DNA of 64,000 nt from Salinadaptatus halalkaliphilus (lineage in GTDB: Archaea; Halobacteriota; Halobacteria; Halobacteriales; Natrialbaceae). The notes under the pieces were generated by a model that searched no databases, had not been told where the DNA came from, and saw only the letters and a program-made list of their open reading frames with translations. Position numbers and translations under genes: made by a program. The DNA lies in the NCBI RefSeq assembly GCF_006543045.1, contig NZ_RBZW01000032.1, forward strand, positions 1 to 64,000, read 5' to 3'. Shown here in pieces: positions 991 to 11,199 of this stretch (its first letter is position 1; each line of letters opens with the position of its first letter).

Positions 991-1037
991 AACGATCGCC
1001 TCACTTATTGGCCGTTTACAGCGGGATTGCACACGAG

Positions 1038-1586
1038 ATGGAAGAGGCAACGATCGGAAACGAGTACCGCCAGGACTCGCGATCGCCAGTTCTCGGCGCG
1101 GACGCGACGATTCGAAGCGGCACGATCATCTACGACGACGTCGTCAGCGGTGACGGACTGAAGACGGGACATAACGCGGTTATTCGAGAACGGACCATCC
1201 TCGGGGACAACGTCCTCGTCGGGACGAACGCGGTTATCGACGGTGATACCGACATCGGCTCGAATGTGAGCCTACAGACGGGCGTCTACGTACCTACGAA
1301 CACGACCATCGGTGACAACGTATTCGTCGGGCCTCACGCGGTTCTGACGAACGATCCGGCTCCCCTGCGTACGGAGGGAGATCTCCGTGGACCAACGCTC
1401 GAGGAGCATAGTTCGGTCGGCGCGAACGCGACTATTCTCCCCGGAGTCACGGTCGGACGAGGTTCGTTCGTCGGTGCTGGGGCGGTCGTCACGCGGGACG
1501 TTCCCCCGGAGCGATTGGCGATCGGCGCGCCGGCCACGCACGAACCGCTTCCCAAACAACTGCACGGAGGAAACCGTATCGAATGA
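1038..1586 (+). CDS. LbH-fold N-acetyltransferase (WbpD-like)
   Basis: A 182-residue left-handed beta-helix acyltransferase built from hexapeptide repeats: ATIRSGTIIYDDV, then HNAVIRERTILGDNV, GTNAVIDGDTDIGSNV, and a C-terminal GANATILPGVTVG coil followed by the usual GAPATHEPLPK tail. WbpD-type enzymes acetylate the 3-amino group of UDP-2-acetamido-3-amino-2,3-dideoxy-glucuronate using acetyl-CoA. I chose the ATG at 1038 because the family starts near MEEATIGNEY; an in-frame upstream ATG at 1008 would add ten residues. The stop overlaps the next gene by 4 nt (ATGA), so it opens an operon with the aminotransferase. Substrate is inferred from context. Confidence 0.85.
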   Translation: MEEATIGNEYRQDSRSPVLGADATIRSGTIIYDDVVSGDGLKTGHNAVIRERTILGDNVLVGTNAVIDGDTDIGSNVSLQTGVYVPTNTTIGDNVFVGPHAVLTNDPAPLRTEGDLRGPTLEEHSSVGANATILPGVTVGRGSFVGAGAVVTRDVPPERLAIGAPATHEPLPKQLHGGNRIE

Positions 1587-2662
1587 CCGCTATCGCACAG
1601 CCGATTCTCGGTGAAGCAGAGATCGAACGCGTTTCGGACGTTATCCAAAGCGGGACGATCGCCGACGGGCCCGAAGTCCGCGACTTCGAACACGAGTTCG
1701 CGGCGTACTGTGACGCCGCTCACGGCGTCGCGACGTCGAACGGCACGACCGCACTTCACGCTGCGCTGTCCGGGCTCGGGATTGGATCCGGCGACCGAGT
1801 GCTGACGACGCCGTTCTCGTTCATCGCGACGGCCAACGCGATCAGACACGTCGGTGCCGAACCGGTGTTCGCGGACGTCGATCCGACGACGTACAACCTC
1901 GACCCCGACTCCGCCAGAGCGGTCGCAGCCGACGCCGAAATCGACGCGATCGTCGTCGTTCACCTCTACGGACTGCCGACGGAGATGGACGCGTTTGTCG
2001 ATCTCGCCGACGAACTCGAGGTGGCGCTCGTCGAGGACGCTGCACAGGCACACGGGGCGACCTACGACGGGCGTCCCGTCGGAACGTTTGGCGACGCCGC
2101 GTGCTTCTCGTTCTATCCGACGAAGAACATGACAACCGGCGAGGGCGGGATCGTCGTCACGGATCGAGCCGACGTTGCGGAGCGCGTTCGGCAGTTTATC
2201 AACCACGGTCGAACCGGAACGTACGAGCACGCGACCGTCGGCCACAATTTCCGCATGACCAGCCTCGCAGCGGCGATCGGTCGCGTGCAACTCGAGCGCC
2301 TTCCCGGCTTCGTCGAGCGACGTCGGGAAAATGCCACGCGACTCTCGGCCGGACTCTCGGACACGGATCTCGTGCTTCCGGTCGAACCGCCCCCGGCGAA
2401 ACACGCGTTCCACCAGTACACTGTTCGCGTCCGCTCACACGACCGTACCCGGCTCGCGGATCACCTCGCCGACCACGATATCGAGAGCGGCGTCTACTAC
2501 CCCACCTGCATTCACGGCCAGCCTGCGTACGACGAGATCGACGCCGACGCACCGCTCGCAGAGCAAGCGGCGCGAGACGTGCTCTCGCTTCCCGTCCACC
2601 CCTCGGTTACGGACGCAGGGATCGATCGGATCTCGACGGTAATCACACGCTATCTCACCTGA
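1583..2662 (+). CDS. DegT/DnrJ/EryC1 sugar aminotransferase (WbpE-like)
   Basis: A 359-residue PLP-dependent nucleotide-sugar aminotransferase of normal length. It shows the TSNGTTALHAAL phosphate-binding region (about 51-62), the VEDAAQAHGA motif with the Asp that contacts the pyridine nitrogen (about 150-159), and the Schiff-base lysine in SFYPTKNMTTGEGG (Lys181). WbpE homologues transfer an amino group to the 3-keto sugar made by the WbpB oxidoreductase, whose homologue is encoded 30 nt downstream. It overlaps the acetyltransferase gene by 4 nt. The family is clear; the exact sugar is inferred from the neighbours. Confidence 0.92.
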   Translation: MTAIAQPILGEAEIERVSDVIQSGTIADGPEVRDFEHEFAAYCDAAHGVATSNGTTALHAALSGLGIGSGDRVLTTPFSFIATANAIRHVGAEPVFADVDPTTYNLDPDSARAVAADAEIDAIVVVHLYGLPTEMDAFVDLADELEVALVEDAAQAHGATYDGRPVGTFGDAACFSFYPTKNMTTGEGGIVVTDRADVAERVRQFINHGRTGTYEHATVGHNFRMTSLAAAIGRVQLERLPGFVERRRENATRLSAGLSDTDLVLPVEPPPAKHAFHQYTVRVRSHDRTRLADHLADHDIESGVYYPTCIHGQPAYDEIDADAPLAEQAARDVLSLPVHPSVTDAGIDRISTVITRYLT

Positions 2663-2692: not shown

Positions 2693-3679
2693 ATGACAGC
2701 AGAGACTCTCCCGATCGACGTCGGTGTTATCGGCGTCGGCAGTATGGGCCAACACCACGCACGAGTGTACAACAACCTCCCGTCAGCGAATCTCGTCGGC
2801 ATCTGTGACTACGACCAAGCGCTTGCCGAAGAGGTCGCCGACGAGTACAGTACGGAGGCGATGGGTCTCGGGGAGTTACTCGACTCCGTCGACGCGGCCT
2901 CCATCGTCGTCCCCACTGTTCACCACTACGATCTCGCGGTCCAGTGTCTCGAGACGGACATCGGGATCATGATCGAGAAGCCGGTCGTCGACGAACTCCA
3001 GGTCGGCTACAAACTCCTCGAGAAGGCGAAGGAATCGAAGGAGGTCGTCCAGGTCGGACACGTCGAGCGATTCAATCCCGCGATCGTCGCTCTCCAGGAA
3101 TTTCTCGACGAGTTGACCGTGATCGATATCACATCGAGGCGGCTTGGCCCGCCGCCGAACCGCGACATCGCGGACAGTGCCGTGATCGACCTGATGATCC
3201 ACGACATCGACATCGTCCTCATGCTCCTTGACGAAATGCCATCGTCCATCCAGAGTGTGGGCGTCTACGGGAACAGACACGCCACGGGACTGCTCGAGTT
3301 CGATTCGGGCGTGATGGCATCGTTGACGGCGAGTCGGCTGACACAGCAAACGGCGCGAACCCTCGATATCACCGCCGAGGAGTGCCTCGTCAAACTGGAC
3401 TACAACGACCAGTCGATCGATATTCACCGAAGTTCGATGCCGGAATATCTCGAGGAGCAGGGGCGAGCGCTGTTTCGCGAAATGACTGTCATCGAGCAGC
3501 CACAGATTTACGGTGAGGAGCCACTCGCCAGGGAACTCGAATCGTTCCTCGAGGTCGTCGCTTCGGACGGCGAACCGGCGGTGACCGTCAGCGACGGGCT
3601 CCACGCGCTCGAGGTCGCACAGAAAATCGACGAGACCGGCACGGATCTCCCTGCCCCGTCATGGATCACAGATGACTAA
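2693..3679 (+). CDS. Gfo/Idh/MocA-family NAD-dependent oxidoreductase (WbpB-like)
   Basis: A 328-residue oxidoreductase with an N-terminal Rossmann motif GVIGVGSMGQHHARV (about 11-25) and the family EKP signature (Glu95-Lys96-Pro97), followed by the GFO_IDH_MocA C-terminal domain. WbpB oxidises C3 of UDP-GlcNAc-uronate, making the ketone used by the aminotransferase encoded just upstream. The start lies 30 nt after the aminotransferase stop, and the end overlaps the dehydrogenase gene by 8 nt. Context strongly supports the nucleotide-sugar role; the fold alone would not fix the substrate. Confidence 0.88.
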   Translation: MTAETLPIDVGVIGVGSMGQHHARVYNNLPSANLVGICDYDQALAEEVADEYSTEAMGLGELLDSVDAASIVVPTVHHYDLAVQCLETDIGIMIEKPVVDELQVGYKLLEKAKESKEVVQVGHVERFNPAIVALQEFLDELTVIDITSRRLGPPPNRDIADSAVIDLMIHDIDIVLMLLDEMPSSIQSVGVYGNRHATGLLEFDSGVMASLTASRLTQQTARTLDITAEECLVKLDYNDQSIDIHRSSMPEYLEEQGRALFREMTVIEQPQIYGEEPLARELESFLEVVASDGEPAVTVSDGLHALEVAQKIDETGTDLPAPSWITDD

Positions 3680-5075
3680 CCACCACTCCGAAACTGAACG
3701 GGCGTCGTTGTACAATTCGGCGCAGTCCGTCGAGTCCCAGATCGAAGCGTTACGAACCGGTTCCGTTCCCGTGTCGGTGTACGGACTCGGGAAAATGGGG
3801 CTCCCGCTCGCAGCGATGTACGCGAAGACGACGGGAAACGTCCTCGGGGCCGACATCGATTCCGCGGTCGTCGAGGAACTCAACGAGGGTCACTGTCACG
3901 TCAAAGGAGAGCCGGAACTCCCGGAACTCGTCGCGGAACTCGTCTCGAACGGGGCGCTCTCGGCGACGACCGACCCGCTCGAAGCCGCCGAATACGGAAC
4001 CGTCCACGTCGTGATCGTTCCGACGCCGATCACGGCCGAACACGAACCCGACCTCTCGATCCTCGACGCCGTCACCGACGATATCGGTTCGGGACTCGAG
4101 ACGGGTGACATCGTCATCATCGAATGCACCGTCCCGCCGAGAACGACGGCCGAACGCGTCCGCCCCGCCCTCGAGTCCGCATCCGGCCTGTCGATCGGCG
4201 AGTTCGGACTCGCCGTCTGTCCCGAGCGAACCTCGAGTGGGCGCGCGCTCAGGGACATCCGGGGTGCGTATCCGAAAGTCGTCGGCGGAATCGACGCTGA
4301 AAGTGCGCGCGTGACGGAGCTCGTGTACGGCGAACTCACCGACGCGGACGTACTTCGCGTCTCGGATGCGACGACCGCGGAAGCCGTGAAGGTGTTCGAG
4401 GGACTCTACCGCGACGTCAACATCGCGCTCGCAAACGAACTGGCGACGATGGCAGAGGAGCTGGGAATCGACGTTCTGGAGGCGATCGAGGTTGCGAACA
4501 CCCAGCCCTACTGCGACATCCACCGGCCGGGGCCGGGCGTCGGCGGCCACTGCATCCCCTTCTACCCCTACTTCGTGATCGCGCCCTTCGAGACGCCGAC
4601 ACCCCTGCTCGAGACCGCTCGAGCGGTCAACGATTCGATGCCAGGATTCGTCGTCGAGAAACTCGGGGCGGAGTTCGAGGCCGAGGGGATGGCGCTCTCG
4701 GACGCCTCGATACTCCTGCTGGGGCTGACGTACCGTCCGGGCGTCGAGGAGATTCGGGCGTCGCCGTCGCTGGCTATCGCGGAACAACTGTCAGCGCAGA
4801 ACGCGTTGGTGTACGGCGTCGATCCGATGCTCGAATCCGTCGCGGAGTTCGACCTTCAGCGGCTCTCTCTCCCCGAAATCGAGGAACGAGCGTTCGATGC
4901 TGTCGTCGTCGTCACGCCCCACGAGGAGTTCGAATCGATACAGTGGGACGAACTCGAGCGTTCGAGCGGTCAGCTGTTCGTCCTCGACGGACGCGACGCG
5001 CTCGACGCCCCTGCGATCACCGACGCCGGCCACCGACTGTACACGATCGGTGTCGGAGGTGATCGCGGTGTATAG
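3672..5075 (+). CDS. UDP-N-acetyl-hexosamine 6-dehydrogenase (WbpA/WecC-like)
   Basis: A 467-residue UDP-glucose/UDP-ManNAc dehydrogenase family protein. It has the Rossmann motif VYGLGKMGLPLA (about 37-48), the central helix AEAVKVFEGLYRDVNIALAN with the conserved lysine and Asn, and the catalytic cysteine in GPGVGGHCIPF (Cys294). A C-terminal UDP-binding domain contains GLTYRPGVEEIRASPS. It oxidises C6 of a UDP-N-acetylhexosamine to the uronate, the first step of diacetamido-uronate synthesis. It overlaps the preceding gene by 8 nt and the following glycosyltransferase by 8 nt. Whether the substrate is UDP-GlcNAc (WbpA) or UDP-ManNAc (WecC) cannot be decided here. Confidence 0.9.
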   Translation: MTNHHSETERASLYNSAQSVESQIEALRTGSVPVSVYGLGKMGLPLAAMYAKTTGNVLGADIDSAVVEELNEGHCHVKGEPELPELVAELVSNGALSATTDPLEAAEYGTVHVVIVPTPITAEHEPDLSILDAVTDDIGSGLETGDIVIIECTVPPRTTAERVRPALESASGLSIGEFGLAVCPERTSSGRALRDIRGAYPKVVGGIDAESARVTELVYGELTDADVLRVSDATTAEAVKVFEGLYRDVNIALANELATMAEELGIDVLEAIEVANTQPYCDIHRPGPGVGGHCIPFYPYFVIAPFETPTPLLETARAVNDSMPGFVVEKLGAEFEAEGMALSDASILLLGLTYRPGVEEIRASPSLAIAEQLSAQNALVYGVDPMLESVAEFDLQRLSLPEIEERAFDAVVVVTPHEEFESIQWDELERSSGQLFVLDGRDALDAPAITDAGHRLYTIGVGGDRGV

Positions 5076-6150
5076 AGAACACACTGTAGGCGTCGTCATC
5101 CCTGCGCACGACGAAGCGGGGTTCATCGGCTCGGTTCTCGAGCGACTGCCGTCGTTCGTCGACCGCGCGTACGTGGTCGACGACGGCTCGACCGACGCGA
5201 CGTGGGACGTACTGATGCGGTCTGCCGACCGCCTCAACGAGACGGAGTCCGCTCACGCCGACCGAACCACGGGAACCGACGGCGGCGCCGCACTCGAGCC
5301 GCGAATCCAACCGATTCGACACGACCGAAATCGCGGTGTCGGAGCCGCGATCAAAACCGGGTACATGGCGGCGCTTGACGACGAACTCGATATCGTGACC
5401 GTCATGGCCGGCGACGATCAGATGGATCCGCTCGTCCTCGAACGGCTGCTGGATCCGGTCGTCGAGGATCGAGCGGACTACGCGAAGGGCACTCGACTTC
5501 TCTCTCGAGAGTTCCACCAGGGGATGTCAACGTGGCGCTTTGTCGGGAATACGATCCTCTCCGTGCTCACGAAGATCGCCAGCGGCTACTGGAAGACGAC
5601 CGACCCGCAGAACGGGTACACGGCCATCTCCGGCGACGCGCTCGAAGCGGTCGACATCGAGGGGCTCTACGAGGACTACGGCTACTGCAATCATCTCTTG
5701 GTGAAGTTGAACGTCCAGGAGATGCGGGTCGCCGACGTGGCGATTCCTGCGATATACGGCACCGAACAGTCGGGGATCATGTACCCGAAGTACATCCGAA
5801 AGGTCTCTCTCATGTTACTCTCGAGTTTCCTCTGGCGGTTACAGGCCAGGTATCTGGTACGGGATTTCCACCCGCTTGCACTGTTGTACTACGCCGGCGC
5901 GGCAACGGCAGGGAGCGGCATACTCAGCGGCCTCCGAACGCTCTACACGGCGACCGACCGCGACGAACAGGCCCACCTCAAGGCGGCCTCGAGCCTCCTG
6001 TTGTTCGCGCTGGGATGGCTCTTCATGCTGCTTGCGATGGTGTTCGATATGAAGCACAACGAGGACAAAGAGCTCCGAATTGAGACGACTCGATCCGATT
6101 CCGAATCGGTCGGAATCGACGACCAGCCACCGAAATTCGATACGCGATGA
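5068..6150 (+). CDS. GT2 glycosyltransferase with C-terminal membrane helices
   Basis: A 360-residue family 2 glycosyltransferase. The N-terminus has VVIPAHDEAGFIGSV and VVDDGSTDAT, then RHDRNRGVGAAIKTGY and an AGDDQMDP metal-binding region. The C-terminal third has two hydrophobic segments, typical of polyprenyl-phosphate sugar transferases of the DPM1/AglJ type. I start it at the GTG at 5068 because a Shine-Dalgarno-like GGAGG at 5055-5059 sits at proper spacing; a GTG at 5059 would overlap that signal. It overlaps the dehydrogenase gene by 8 nt and the next gene by 4 nt. Likely substrates are nucleotide sugar and dolichol phosphate; this is inferred. Confidence 0.85.
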   Translation: MYREHTVGVVIPAHDEAGFIGSVLERLPSFVDRAYVVDDGSTDATWDVLMRSADRLNETESAHADRTTGTDGGAALEPRIQPIRHDRNRGVGAAIKTGYMAALDDELDIVTVMAGDDQMDPLVLERLLDPVVEDRADYAKGTRLLSREFHQGMSTWRFVGNTILSVLTKIASGYWKTTDPQNGYTAISGDALEAVDIEGLYEDYGYCNHLLVKLNVQEMRVADVAIPAIYGTEQSGIMYPKYIRKVSLMLLSSFLWRLQARYLVRDFHPLALLYYAGAATAGSGILSGLRTLYTATDRDEQAHLKAASSLLLFALGWLFMLLAMVFDMKHNEDKELRIETTRSDSESVGIDDQPPKFDTR

Positions 6151-7190
6151 AAGTACTGTTCGACGTCAGCCACCCCGCACACGTCCACCTGTTTAAACAC
6201 GCCATTCGCGGGCTCGAGGCGGACGGCCACGAGGTGCTGGTGCTCTCCCGGGAGAAAGACGTCACGATCCAACTGCTCGACAGTGAGGAGATCGACCACC
6301 TCCCCATCTCGAGGATGGGGACTCGGAAGCTCTCGTTGCTCTCCGAGTGGCTGGCGCGCGAAGTTCGAACGATTCGAATGGTCAAGCGATTCGAACCCGA
6401 TGTCGCGCTCTGCGTCATGAATCCTGCGACCGCACACGCCGGACAATTGCTCGACTGTCCGGTGATCGCGTTCAACGACACCGAGCCGGTCAAACTCGCG
6501 TCGTCGCTGACGCTCCCGTTCGTCGATCGCCTCTGTACGCCGGCGAACTTCGACGTCGATCACGGCGACAAACACCGGACGTACGACGGGTACCACGAAC
6601 TCGCGTATCTCCATCCGGATCGGTTCACTCCCGATCCGGATTCGCTCCGAGCGTTCGGCATCGAACCCGACGACCCGTACACAGTCGTTCGGTTCGTTTC
6701 CTGGGGCGCACACCACGATGTCGGGCAGCGCAGCCTCTCGAACGAGTCCAAGCGCGAACTGGTATCGCTTCTCGACGAGTACGGCGCGGTCTACATCAGT
6801 AGCGAGCGAACGCTCCCCGAGGAGTTCGAATCCTACCGCCTGCCGATCCCGCCCGAACGGATGCACGACTTGCTGTACTACGCCGACCTGTACGTCGGCG
6901 ACTCCGGGACGATGTCGACCGAAGCCGCCGTCCTCGGCACGCCGGCGGTTCGCTCGAATACGTTCGCCGGCGAGGCCGACATGAGCAACTTCGTCGAACT
7001 CGAGGACGAGTACGGGCTCCTGTACTCCAGATCGGACGCCGAGGAAACGATCGAACTCGTCCGCGACTTGCTCGAATCTCCTGATTTGCGGGAGACATGG
7101 TCGGCGAAGCGAGCGCGACTCGTCGAGGAGAAAATCGACGTCACCGAGTATATGCTCGAACAGATCGACGACGTCGGCGGTGACGCATGA
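6147..7190 (+). CDS. DUF354 (GT-B-like) glycan biosynthesis protein
   Basis: A 347-residue protein of the DUF354 family, beginning MKVLFDVSHPAHVHLFKHAI. The C-terminal half has YYADLYVGDSGTMSTEAAVLG, which resembles the sugar-nucleotide pocket of GT-B enzymes and UDP-GlcNAc 2-epimerases. DUF354 proteins recur in archaeal glycosylation loci and are usually treated as glycosyltransferase-like, but I know of no firmly established activity. It overlaps both neighbours by 4 nt (ATGA), so it is translationally coupled in the operon. It should use a product of the dehydrogenase/aminotransferase pathway, by context only. Confidence 0.8.
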   Translation: MKVLFDVSHPAHVHLFKHAIRGLEADGHEVLVLSREKDVTIQLLDSEEIDHLPISRMGTRKLSLLSEWLAREVRTIRMVKRFEPDVALCVMNPATAHAGQLLDCPVIAFNDTEPVKLASSLTLPFVDRLCTPANFDVDHGDKHRTYDGYHELAYLHPDRFTPDPDSLRAFGIEPDDPYTVVRFVSWGAHHDVGQRSLSNESKRELVSLLDEYGAVYISSERTLPEEFESYRLPIPPERMHDLLYYADLYVGDSGTMSTEAAVLGTPAVRSNTFAGEADMSNFVELEDEYGLLYSRSDAEETIELVRDLLESPDLRETWSAKRARLVEEKIDVTEYMLEQIDDVGGDA

Positions 7191-8119
7191 AAATCGTCTC
7201 CATCGTCGGTGCTCGCCCGCAGTTCGTCAAAGCGTTCGTGGTCTCTCGCCGACTCGAACCCGATCACGAGGAGCTCCTCGTTCACACGGGTCAACACTAC
7301 AGCGACGACCTGTCGGCGGTCTTTTTCGAAGAGCTCTCGATACCGGATCCGGACTACAACCTCGGTGTCGGCTCCGATACGCACGGTCGACAGACCGCGG
7401 CGATGATCGAGGGTATCGAGGAGATCAATCGAGTCCTCACGGATCACGTCTCCGATCTGCTGTTCGCACCGAGCGATCTGGCGAAGACGATGCTCGAAGA
7501 AGAAGAAGGCATTACGGACGGCGTCCACGTCGTCGGCGACGTCGGATACGACGCCATTCGCTGGGCGAAAGAACGGGCTGTGGACGACGTGTTCGATCGG
7601 CTGGGGATCGAGCCGGGCGAATACGTGTTGAGCACGGTTCACCGGGCGAAAAACACCAATAATCCGGCGAGACTCGAGGCGATTTTCGGGGCACTCGCCG
7701 CGACACCGAAACAGGTTATCATCCCGATTCATCCGCGAACAGCGGGCCCACTACGGGAGTATGGACTATGGGAGGAGACGACGCGAGCGCACACCGTTAT
7801 CGATCCCGTCGGCTATCTCGACTTCGTTCGACTGCTCGAGGGTGCCGAACGCGTCGTGACCGACTCGGGCGGGGTGCAAAAGGAGGCGTTCTACCTCGAG
7901 ACCCCCTGTGTAACGCTCCGCGAGGAGACGGAGTGGCGAGAGACGGTCGAATGTGGATGGAACCGGCTCGTCGGTGCCGATCGGACGGCGATTCTTGAGG
8001 GTATCGCAGCGGACTCGTGGCCGGAGTCGGCCCCGCCCATCTACGGCGACGGCCACACCGCCGCAAAACTAGTTGCCATCCTCGAAGAAAGGATCGGGAC
8101 CGGACCGAACTCCGACTAA
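7187..8119 (+). CDS. wecB: UDP-GlcNAc 2-epimerase homologue with an internal deletion
   Basis: A 310-residue WecB/WbpI-type epimerase, about 50-60 residues shorter than usual. The N-terminus (SIVGARPQFVKA, HTGQHYSDDLS) and C-terminus (STVHRAKNTNN, VTDSGGVQKEA, PCVTLREETEWRET) are intact. However, GIEEI at about residue 76-80 joins directly to NRVLTDHVSDLLF. The family normally has a segment here carrying the GDT-type motif, the HVEAGLR motif and PEE-NR, which together supply acidic catalytic residues. The join (7418-7430) is in frame and could come from recombination between GAGGAGA-like stretches. The enzyme is probably inactive or altered. It overlaps the DUF354 gene by 4 nt. Confidence 0.85.
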   Translation: MKIVSIVGARPQFVKAFVVSRRLEPDHEELLVHTGQHYSDDLSAVFFEELSIPDPDYNLGVGSDTHGRQTAAMIEGIEEINRVLTDHVSDLLFAPSDLAKTMLEEEEGITDGVHVVGDVGYDAIRWAKERAVDDVFDRLGIEPGEYVLSTVHRAKNTNNPARLEAIFGALAATPKQVIIPIHPRTAGPLREYGLWEETTRAHTVIDPVGYLDFVRLLEGAERVVTDSGGVQKEAFYLETPCVTLREETEWRETVECGWNRLVGADRTAILEGIAADSWPESAPPIYGDGHTAAKLVAILEERIGTGPNSD

Positions 8120-8124
8120 AGATC

Positions 8125-9186
8125 ATGTCTACGACTACCAAAACACTCGTGCTGTGCGGATTCGTGAACTTCCCAAAAAAGGTCGACACCCACGTAAAGC
8201 CTCTCGCGCTGACCGCGGATACGACCGTTGTCTGTGCGAGCCCCGGATCGCCAGACCCACACATTCGATACAAACGAGCCCCGACGATCGGTGTTCGCAT
8301 TCTCGACGTGTTACTTATACTGCTCATCGGGTTGTCTACCGCCGTTCGAGACGACTACGACCTTATCGTTTCGTTCTCGCTAATACCGTACGGAATATTC
8401 GCGTTTGTGATCGGAACGGTCACGCGAACGCCGACACACCTCGGCATTATTGGCGGAGACGTTGACGGGCACGCTCAGAACTGGTACGGACCAGCGATTA
8501 AATGGTGGTTCAGGCGGTTCGACGTGGTGACAGTCGCGGGTCACGATTACGCGGATCGACTCGCTGAGTACGGCGTTGATCCAGATCGGATTTGGAGGGT
8601 GTTTCACCCCATCGACGACGCCTACCGCGAGAGTACGCCAGTAGCCGATCCAGAGTACGATATTCTGTGGCTCGGGAGGATCAGCCCTGAAAAAGATCCG
8701 TACCTGTTTATTGATACGCTCACCGAACTTCACCGCCGTTCTGTCGAGTTTTCGGCCGTTCTCGTTGGATCCGGACCGTTAGAATCGGATATTCGAGCGC
8801 TGATCAGTCGGCGGGGCCTCGAAGATCACGTCGAACTGGCTGGGTGGACGGACGAGCAACTCGAGTATTACCGAAATTCTCGCGTCTACGTCCTCACGTC
8901 GACGCGTGAGATGATGCCGCTAACAGTAATCGAGGCGATCACGGTTGGCATACCAGTCGTCGTTCCTCCATTGGGTGGTATTCCGGACATCGTCGACGAC
9001 GGAGAGAACGGATATCTGGTTCCAGACGGAAATCCCGGCGCGTACGCCGACAGAATCGAACGAGTTCTTCGAGGCGAAGATTGTCGTCTCGAGCGGTCAC
9101 CGAAAACACGGTGGGTCGAAGACGCTGGGTCGTACGAAGCAGTGTCTCGTTCGTGGGAAGAGATCTTGGCTACGTTGAACCACTAG
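8125..9186 (+). CDS. GT4-family glycosyltransferase
   Basis: A 353-residue GT-B retaining glycosyltransferase. The C-terminal Glycos_transf_1 domain shows ILWLGRISPEKDP, VLVGSGPLES, and the nucleotide-sugar motif with the E-x7-E pattern around MMPLTVIEAITVGIPVV, followed by GGIPDIVDDGENGYLV. I start at the ATG at 8125, five bases after the epimerase stop; longer upstream starts would run through that gene. It is the last gene of the operon. Role: addition of a sugar to a lipid-linked or protein-linked glycan; donor unknown. Confidence 0.87.
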   Translation: MSTTTKTLVLCGFVNFPKKVDTHVKPLALTADTTVVCASPGSPDPHIRYKRAPTIGVRILDVLLILLIGLSTAVRDDYDLIVSFSLIPYGIFAFVIGTVTRTPTHLGIIGGDVDGHAQNWYGPAIKWWFRRFDVVTVAGHDYADRLAEYGVDPDRIWRVFHPIDDAYRESTPVADPEYDILWLGRISPEKDPYLFIDTLTELHRRSVEFSAVLVGSGPLESDIRALISRRGLEDHVELAGWTDEQLEYYRNSRVYVLTSTREMMPLTVIEAITVGIPVVVPPLGGIPDIVDDGENGYLVPDGNPGAYADRIERVLRGEDCRLERSPKTRWVEDAGSYEAVSRSWEEILATLNH

Positions 9187-9313: not shown

Positions 9314-9577
9314 GCACCCGTTCCTCAAAACCTTTTCCGGAGTACTAAAGACCGGACGCCAGCGCAGGTTGCAACGATCTACAACAAGCGGTCGCAGATC
9401 GAAAAGAGCTACGAGAAGTTCCGTGAGGCGCGTGCAGTGACGACAACATCGCCAACGACAATTCGCCTCTTCTACGTGGGTGTCGGGTTCTTGTTAGAGC
9501 AGTTGTGGCTGGTATTACAGTGGGCCGTGGAGTTTACGTTCGGAGATGCGTTTCTCCACGGGATCGAACGGGTATGA
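9314..9577 (+). pseudogene. C-terminal relic of an IS4-type DDE transposase
   Basis: An open frame without a start runs from 9314 to a TGA at 9575-9577. It contains TPAQVATIYNKRSQIEKSYE, an aromatic RLFYVGVGFLLEQLWLVLQW segment and a short tail. The Y-x2-R-x3-E-x2-Y/F arrangement followed by a hydrophobic stretch is the C-terminal signature of IS4-group transposases (ISH3/ISH5-like in haloarchaea), with the catalytic Glu in the IEKSYE segment. The N-terminal two thirds with the DD residues are missing. The rest of 9578-9942 holds no gene I can support, apart from the hairpin at 9663. Confidence 0.6.
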
Positions 9578-10653: not shown

Positions 10654-10735
10654 ATACGGTTTACTGTAAGTCATTGCCGGCGCACCCGCGACCCGGGCGG
10701 CGGGTACGCCGGTAAATCGTTACAGCAATCCGTAT
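10654..10735. repeat. Palindromic element copy A (82 bp)
   Basis: Two 36-nt arms (10654-10689 and 10700-10735) form an imperfect inverted repeat with 28 of 36 positions matching, around a 10-nt loop GACCCGGGCG. The ends read ATACGG and CCGTAT, flanked by CTC on the left and CAGG on the right. The same terminal sequence, internal CTGTAA/TTACAG block and overall size occur at 11111-11191, 44682-44762 and 59969-60050. It therefore belongs to a dispersed palindromic family in this genome. Confidence 0.85.
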
Positions 10736-10917
10736 CAGGGCACGACACGGTATTGAGCGGTGACTTCGAACCCGTCTAACTCGTCAGCAGAGTCAAATCG
10801 AAGTCCTCTGTACTTATCGCCTATCGAGGTCACCAGAGCAAGGTTTACGAACCGTTCTATAACACCCTCTATAATCGATAGTTGTCCACTCAATCCAAGC
10901 GGCCAGCTGGCTAACAC
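10735..10917 (-). CDS. Doubtful 60-residue frame ending in a palindromic element
   Basis: The peptide reads IIEGVIERFVNLALVTSIGD, then YRGLRFDSADELDGFEV, and stops at the TGA formed by the right end of palindromic element A. The composition is protein-like, but I recognise no family. It may be the truncated tail of a gene that the element cut, or a chance frame. The lack of a neighbouring partner gene argues for a fragment. Confidence 0.2.
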   Translation of the reverse strand: MLASWPLGLSGQLSIIEGVIERFVNLALVTSIGDKYRGLRFDSADELDGFEVTAQYRVVP

Positions 10918-10980: not shown

Positions 10981-11199
10981 ATGAACCTCCCACAACTCAA
11001 GCAGGTACTCACCGATCCGGACGAATTCATTTCGAACCGGCAACTCAAGGCTCTTTCTCTGGAACTGCTTCTGTTGATCACGATGCCGGGGATCGAGGGT
11101 TTAGTGACTCATACGGATTGTTGTAGCGTTTTACCGGTGATCACCCGGACGGGGTCGGTGATCACCGGTAAAGAACTACAACGGTCCGTATCAGGATAG
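10981..11199 (+). CDS. Small frame whose 3' end is formed by palindromic element B
   Basis: The frame starts MNLPQLKQVLTDPDEFISNR, continues with a leucine-rich helix, and then runs straight through the palindromic element at 11111-11191. The last roughly 30 codons and the stop are element sequence. The first 42 residues look like a real acidic-helical protein; the rest looks like translated repeat. Either the element inserted near the 3' end of a small gene, or the frame is decayed. No family recognised. Confidence 0.3.
   Translation: MNLPQLKQVLTDPDEFISNRQLKALSLELLLLITMPGIEGLVTHTDCCSVLPVITRTGSVITGKELQRSVSG
11111..11191. repeat. Palindromic element copy B (81 bp)
   Basis: Left arm 11111-11145 and right arm 11157-11191 match at 30 of 35 positions. 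The inner 16 bp, TTTACCGGTGATCACC and its complement, are perfect. The loop (11146-11156) is CGGACGGGGTC. The arms are almost identical, in the same orientation, to copy C at 44682-44762, whose loop GACCCCGTCCG is the exact reverse complement of this one. The core has therefore been inverted relative to the outer arms. Confidence 0.9.

Follow-up and report, generated by a model that had tools for sequence, protein, structure and literature searches.

The last gene in a run of surface-sugar genes from the haloarchaeon Salinadaptatus halalkaliphilus appears to encode a UDP-sugar 2-epimerase that is missing its catalytic center, which raises the question of how the gene was shortened and whether its product can still have a function. 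The gene lies in a 64,000-nucleotide stretch of DNA (“the window”) that belongs to contig C40, 117.6 kb long; the genome assembly totals 4.52 Mb and has 77 contigs. The original prediction was that the gene had lost its catalytic segment in frame through recombination between GAGGAGA-like stretches.

Alignment with 11 intact homologs revealed a gap, exactly 50 residues long, where GI meets EEINRVLTDH, and the product junction reads ...TAAMIEGIEEI/NRVLTDHVSD... Relative to its syntenic orthologs, the gene for the 310-residue product lacks exactly 50 codons (150 bp). The lost piece contains GDTNST with the catalytic Asp, HVEAGLRS with the catalytic Glu and one complete dimer-interface helix, bearing out the predicted loss and its position. 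Homologs in the PDB, including the solved epimerase 8sxv, match in two stretches (query residues 1–80 and 78–298) that skip the middle of the template. The match to the Pfam family Epimerase_2 (PF02350; E = 2e-67) is likewise split in two. TIGR00236 gives a two-piece match of 188.8 bits, which is below the equivalog cutoff of 210.15 bits, compared to 295.5 bits for the intact ortholog and 286.6 bits for a paralog on contig C29. Both flanks align over their full remaining length with the WecB/MnaA group of non-hydrolysing UDP-GlcNAc 2-epimerases (TIGR00236, PF02350). Unlike these enzymes, however, the protein falls under the TIGR00236 cutoff, lacks the two acids (Asp of GDT and Glu of HVEAG) that are expected of a non-hydrolysing 2-epimerase, and has different specificity residues. 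The positions of Glu132 (in the PEE motif) and His208 are present as E78 and H152, with the Pro preceding the Glu changed to Ile. An automatic annotation pipeline is likely to label the gene an active 2-epimerase despite the absence of the catalytic acids.

The best match in both sequence and structure is the UDP-2,3-diacetamido-2,3-dideoxy-glucuronic acid 2-epimerase from Thermus thermophilus HB27, a WbpI-type enzyme (8sxv and others; PMC10622841). Specificity for UDP-GlcNAc3NAcA is associated with Ala18, Tyr96 and Trp307 instead of Leu/Met, His/Gln and Arg (PMC10622841). In the window protein, Ala18 and Trp307 correspond to A16 and W250, while the Tyr96 position was lost with the deleted segment; all orthologs shown have a Tyr there. 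Equivalents of Arg12, Gln14, Lys17, His208, Arg302 and Glu306 are also kept. The original assignment as a UDP-GlcNAc 2-epimerase needs revision as to the substrate, as the residues point to UDP-GlcNAc3NAcA as the probable one and to WbpI-type as the better name for the gene.

The epimerase gene is the last in a run of seven, preceded by genes for a hexapeptide acyltransferase, a DegT aminotransferase, a GFO/IDH dehydrogenase, a nucleotide-sugar 6-dehydrogenase, a GT2 glycosyltransferase and a DUF354 protein (Table 1). The same seven-gene order, with an intact epimerase, is found in four relatives (G018, G137, G020 and G077), of which G020 has an additional dehydrogenase-like gene. The examined piece of a fifth, G071, agrees where the genes are covered, with DUF354 further from GT2. 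WbpA, B, E, D and I are the enzyme set for UDP-ManNAc3NAcA (PMC10622841), and the corresponding families (6-dehydrogenase, 3-dehydrogenase, aminotransferase, acyltransferase and 2-epimerase) occur together here in a matching order; the individual operon enzymes stay below their NCBIfam equivalog cutoffs. Judging from families and gene order, the epimerase would catalyze the final step encoded by a WbpA/B/E/D/I-like operon, and the sugar would be that of the Wbp pathway. DUF354 is conserved beside the epimerase in several genera, with 90% identity between genera, and is probably a glycosyltransferase-like partner.

Table 1. Features of the epimerase locus and the related paralog. Coordinates are window positions unless a contig or locus is given.
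Feature	Position	Strand	Remarks
Hexapeptide acyltransferase	1008..1586	+	WbpD-like position in operon
DegT/DnrJ/EryC1 aminotransferase	1583..2662	+	WbpE-like; WbpE structures among PDB matches
GFO/IDH/MocA sugar dehydrogenase	2693..3679	+	WbpB-like; nearest NCBIfam is archaeal UDP-GlcNAc 3-dehydrogenase, below cutoff
Nucleotide-sugar 6-dehydrogenase	3672..5075	+	WbpA-like
GT2 glycosyltransferase	4897..6150	+	ORF; 4897 probably lies upstream of the true start
DUF354 protein	6147..7190	+	4-nt overlap with start of epimerase gene; synteny kept in relatives
Internally deleted UDP-sugar 2-epimerase gene, wecB/wbpI type	7187..8119	+	310 aa; intact orthologs about 355–370 aa
5' tract near-identical to G137 ortholog	7187..7574	+	About 94% nt identity, dS 0.19; holds both deletion flanks
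Deletion junction, single remaining copy of 9-bp repeat GAGGAGATC (codons E-E-I)	7418..7426	+	150 bp missing; G137 ortholog has two copies
One-codon insertion (window residue E104)	7496..7498	+	Unique among 64 sequences
Divergent tract, mosaic block	7575..7810	+	65% nt identity, dS about 1.0 to G137 and G018
Two-codon deletion (ortholog residues R183-S184)	7586..7588 (approximate)	+	Unique among 64 sequences
GT4 glycosyltransferase	8125..9186	+	Start 5 nt after epimerase stop; no close counterpart adjoining epimerase in G018 or G137
Intact WbpI-type paralog	G000:C29:90384-91451 (L041:6346-7452)	- (on L041)	52% identical to window protein; same specificity residues

The likely origin of the deletion can be seen in the syntenic orthologs of G137 and G018, which are intact at 356 residues and share 96% and 91% amino acid identity, respectively, with the window protein over residues 1–80 and 71–74% over the C-terminal two thirds. 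The G137 gene, the closest ortholog (locus L043), has two perfect copies of the repeat, 150 bp apart, one at each edge of the segment, reading ATC-GAGGAGATC-CTG and CCG-GAGGAGATC-AAT. In G018 the arrangement is the same, with an imperfect repeat. The copy in the window is preceded by the left flank of the first G137 copy and followed by the sequence to the right of the second. Since only one copy is left, with the outer flanks of both, a single deletion between the copies explains the junction. If the ancestral gene in this genome carried the repeat pair found in G137, recombination or replication slippage between the direct repeats would have removed the 150 bp from the WbpI-type gene at the end of this conserved haloarchaeal operon. 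The recombination at GAGGAGA-like stretches that was originally suggested is thus substantiated by a GAGGAG-type repeat at both G137 edges. The junction is not a join between two different alleles, as both flanks are in one G137-like tract and the change of allele occurs about 150 bp further on.

The preserved reading frame had been taken as a hint of continued function. However, the two copies are read in the same phase as E-E-I, with a spacing of exactly 50 codons, and the frame would thereby be preserved whatever the selection on the gene. The locus, in a surface-sugar operon that haloarchaea of several genera share, presents a clean natural case of a deletion that was mediated by repeats and automatically stayed in frame.

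When 392 genomes of the order were searched with a degenerate DNA pattern encoding the fused peptide, only the genome of the window itself gave a hit, which rules out a deletion common to a clade. The 50-residue segment is present in all of the 63 intact orthologs and paralogs that were aligned, and every relative examined has an intact syntenic ortholog. The nearest homologs among named records are haloarchaeal. No junction was found in viral contigs, and plasmid records contained only homologs, all with <60% identity.

The intact state of every relative, together with the two further indels nearby that are unique to the window sequence, would also fit an assembly or consensus artefact, in which the chromosomal gene is intact and 150 bp were dropped during assembly. 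This is unlikely. A repeat of only 9 bp is far below any assembler k-mer and should not cause a collapse. The junction is inside a long contig, and its flanks share one tract of uniform similarity to G137, so that it is not a chimaera. On the other contigs of the same assembly no intact allele was found, and the missing piece is present only in the C29 paralog.

The consequences for the protein should be severe. In the T. thermophilus enzyme, Asp98 and Glu120 are equivalent to Asp95 and Glu117 of E. coli, whose Asn/Gln mutants were too weak to measure (PMC10622841). By alignment, the window protein lacks residues about 82–131 of that enzyme, which include Tyr96, both catalytic acids and the complete dimer-interface helix 99–111, as well as the end of helix 70–88 and Pro131 at the start of helix 131–142 (PMC10622841 numbering). 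Two strands of the N-terminal Rossmann domain would also be lost. AlphaFold2 gave pLDDT values of 43–79 over residues 1–90 of the deleted protein, dropping below 50 at residues 75–88, compared to 70–96 over residues 1–120 of an intact ortholog modeled with the same sequence set. The C-terminal UDP-binding domain is confident, mostly with pLDDT >85. The top Foldseek match is the T. thermophilus epimerase (TMq 0.85), which partly reflects the alignment used. The N-terminal domain should be badly destabilised, and there is strong reason to expect that the 310-residue product has no epimerase activity.

Outside the deletion, the gene shows no decay. There is no stop codon and no frameshift, and 70 of the 72 positions with at least 95% conservation are kept, consistent with the original description of well-conserved flanks; controls depart at 0.9 such positions on average and up to 5. 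Relative-rate counts against G020 are balanced, with no acceleration. Taken together, these observations rule out an old pseudogene. Either the deletion happened recently, or what is left of the gene is still of use. The two additional indels (+1 and −2 codons) are both in frame, and 60 of 63 controls have none. This mild excess may reflect relaxed constraint on a still-translated gene or belong to a mosaic structure. From about nt 7575 the gene is a recombination mosaic. The divergent block beyond the 5' tract is 88% alike between G137 and G018, and the identity of the window gene to G137 returns to about 87% at 7811–7990. The balanced relative-rate count suggests that the block is an imported allele rather than a product of decay. 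No donor was found in the 392 genomes; the best match was 69% over the C-terminal part.

The intact paralog on C29 is a stand-alone gene among unrelated genes, with no sugar cluster or pathway partners of its own in the 14 kb that were read. Its orthologs in three other genera (G018, G137 and G071) have 73–77% identity. The paralog would make the operon gene redundant and probably makes its loss tolerable. It was originally proposed that the pathway would stop at the gluco-configured sugar. With an intact WbpI-type paralog in the genome, such a stop cannot be claimed. Loss of the step would leave a GlcNAc3NAcA-type sugar as the product. GlcNAc3NAcA-containing N-glycans are known in the archaeon Methanococcus (PMC2952790). 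Since archaeal glycans are thus known to contain this gluco-configured diacetamido uronic acid, albeit in a different organism, the sugar made by a pathway that lacks the epimerase could still be usable.

Our preferred reading, which we consider probable, is that the repeat-mediated 150-bp deletion inactivated a WbpI-type epimerase, recently and in this lineage only, and that the loss is tolerable through the paralog. This would most likely be an ordinary inactivation of a redundant gene. However, the high conservation and the in-frame indels fit a very recent event and equally a shortened gene that remains in use. The shortened protein might have been kept as a pseudoenzyme, for example to bind a UDP-sugar and assist the intact paralog in a regulatory or structural role, and the lack of acceleration, the three indels that are all in frame and the confidently predicted UDP-binding domain would agree with this. 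It is nevertheless quite improbable, considering that frame retention after the deletion was automatic, that the form occurs in a single genome, that the deletion takes away one of the three helices of the dimer interface and shortens the other two, and that the N-terminal domain is predicted with low confidence. That such a pseudoenzyme binds a UDP-sugar through its intact C-terminal domain and thereby controls or modifies glycan synthesis, for example so that the gluco-configured uronic acid is used, is a decidedly improbable model. That the ORF is retained solely because its translation is coupled to that of the GT4 gene is very improbable: the epimerase gene is closely spaced at both ends, but tight packing is general in operons, and GT4 does not adjoin the epimerase in G018 or G137.

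Downstream of the GT4 gene, an open frame at 9347–9574 resembles by eye the C-terminal part of a haloarchaeal transposase (TPAQVATIYNKRSQIEKSYEKFREAR...). A Pfam search with this frame gave no match; it is perhaps an insertion-sequence remnant. Further along, where genes are sparse beyond the operon, are two related palindromic, MITE-like elements at 10689–10739 and 11108–11195, with ends like CCTGATACGGA.TG.TGTA and arms of 38–50 nt that are 76–84% complementary.
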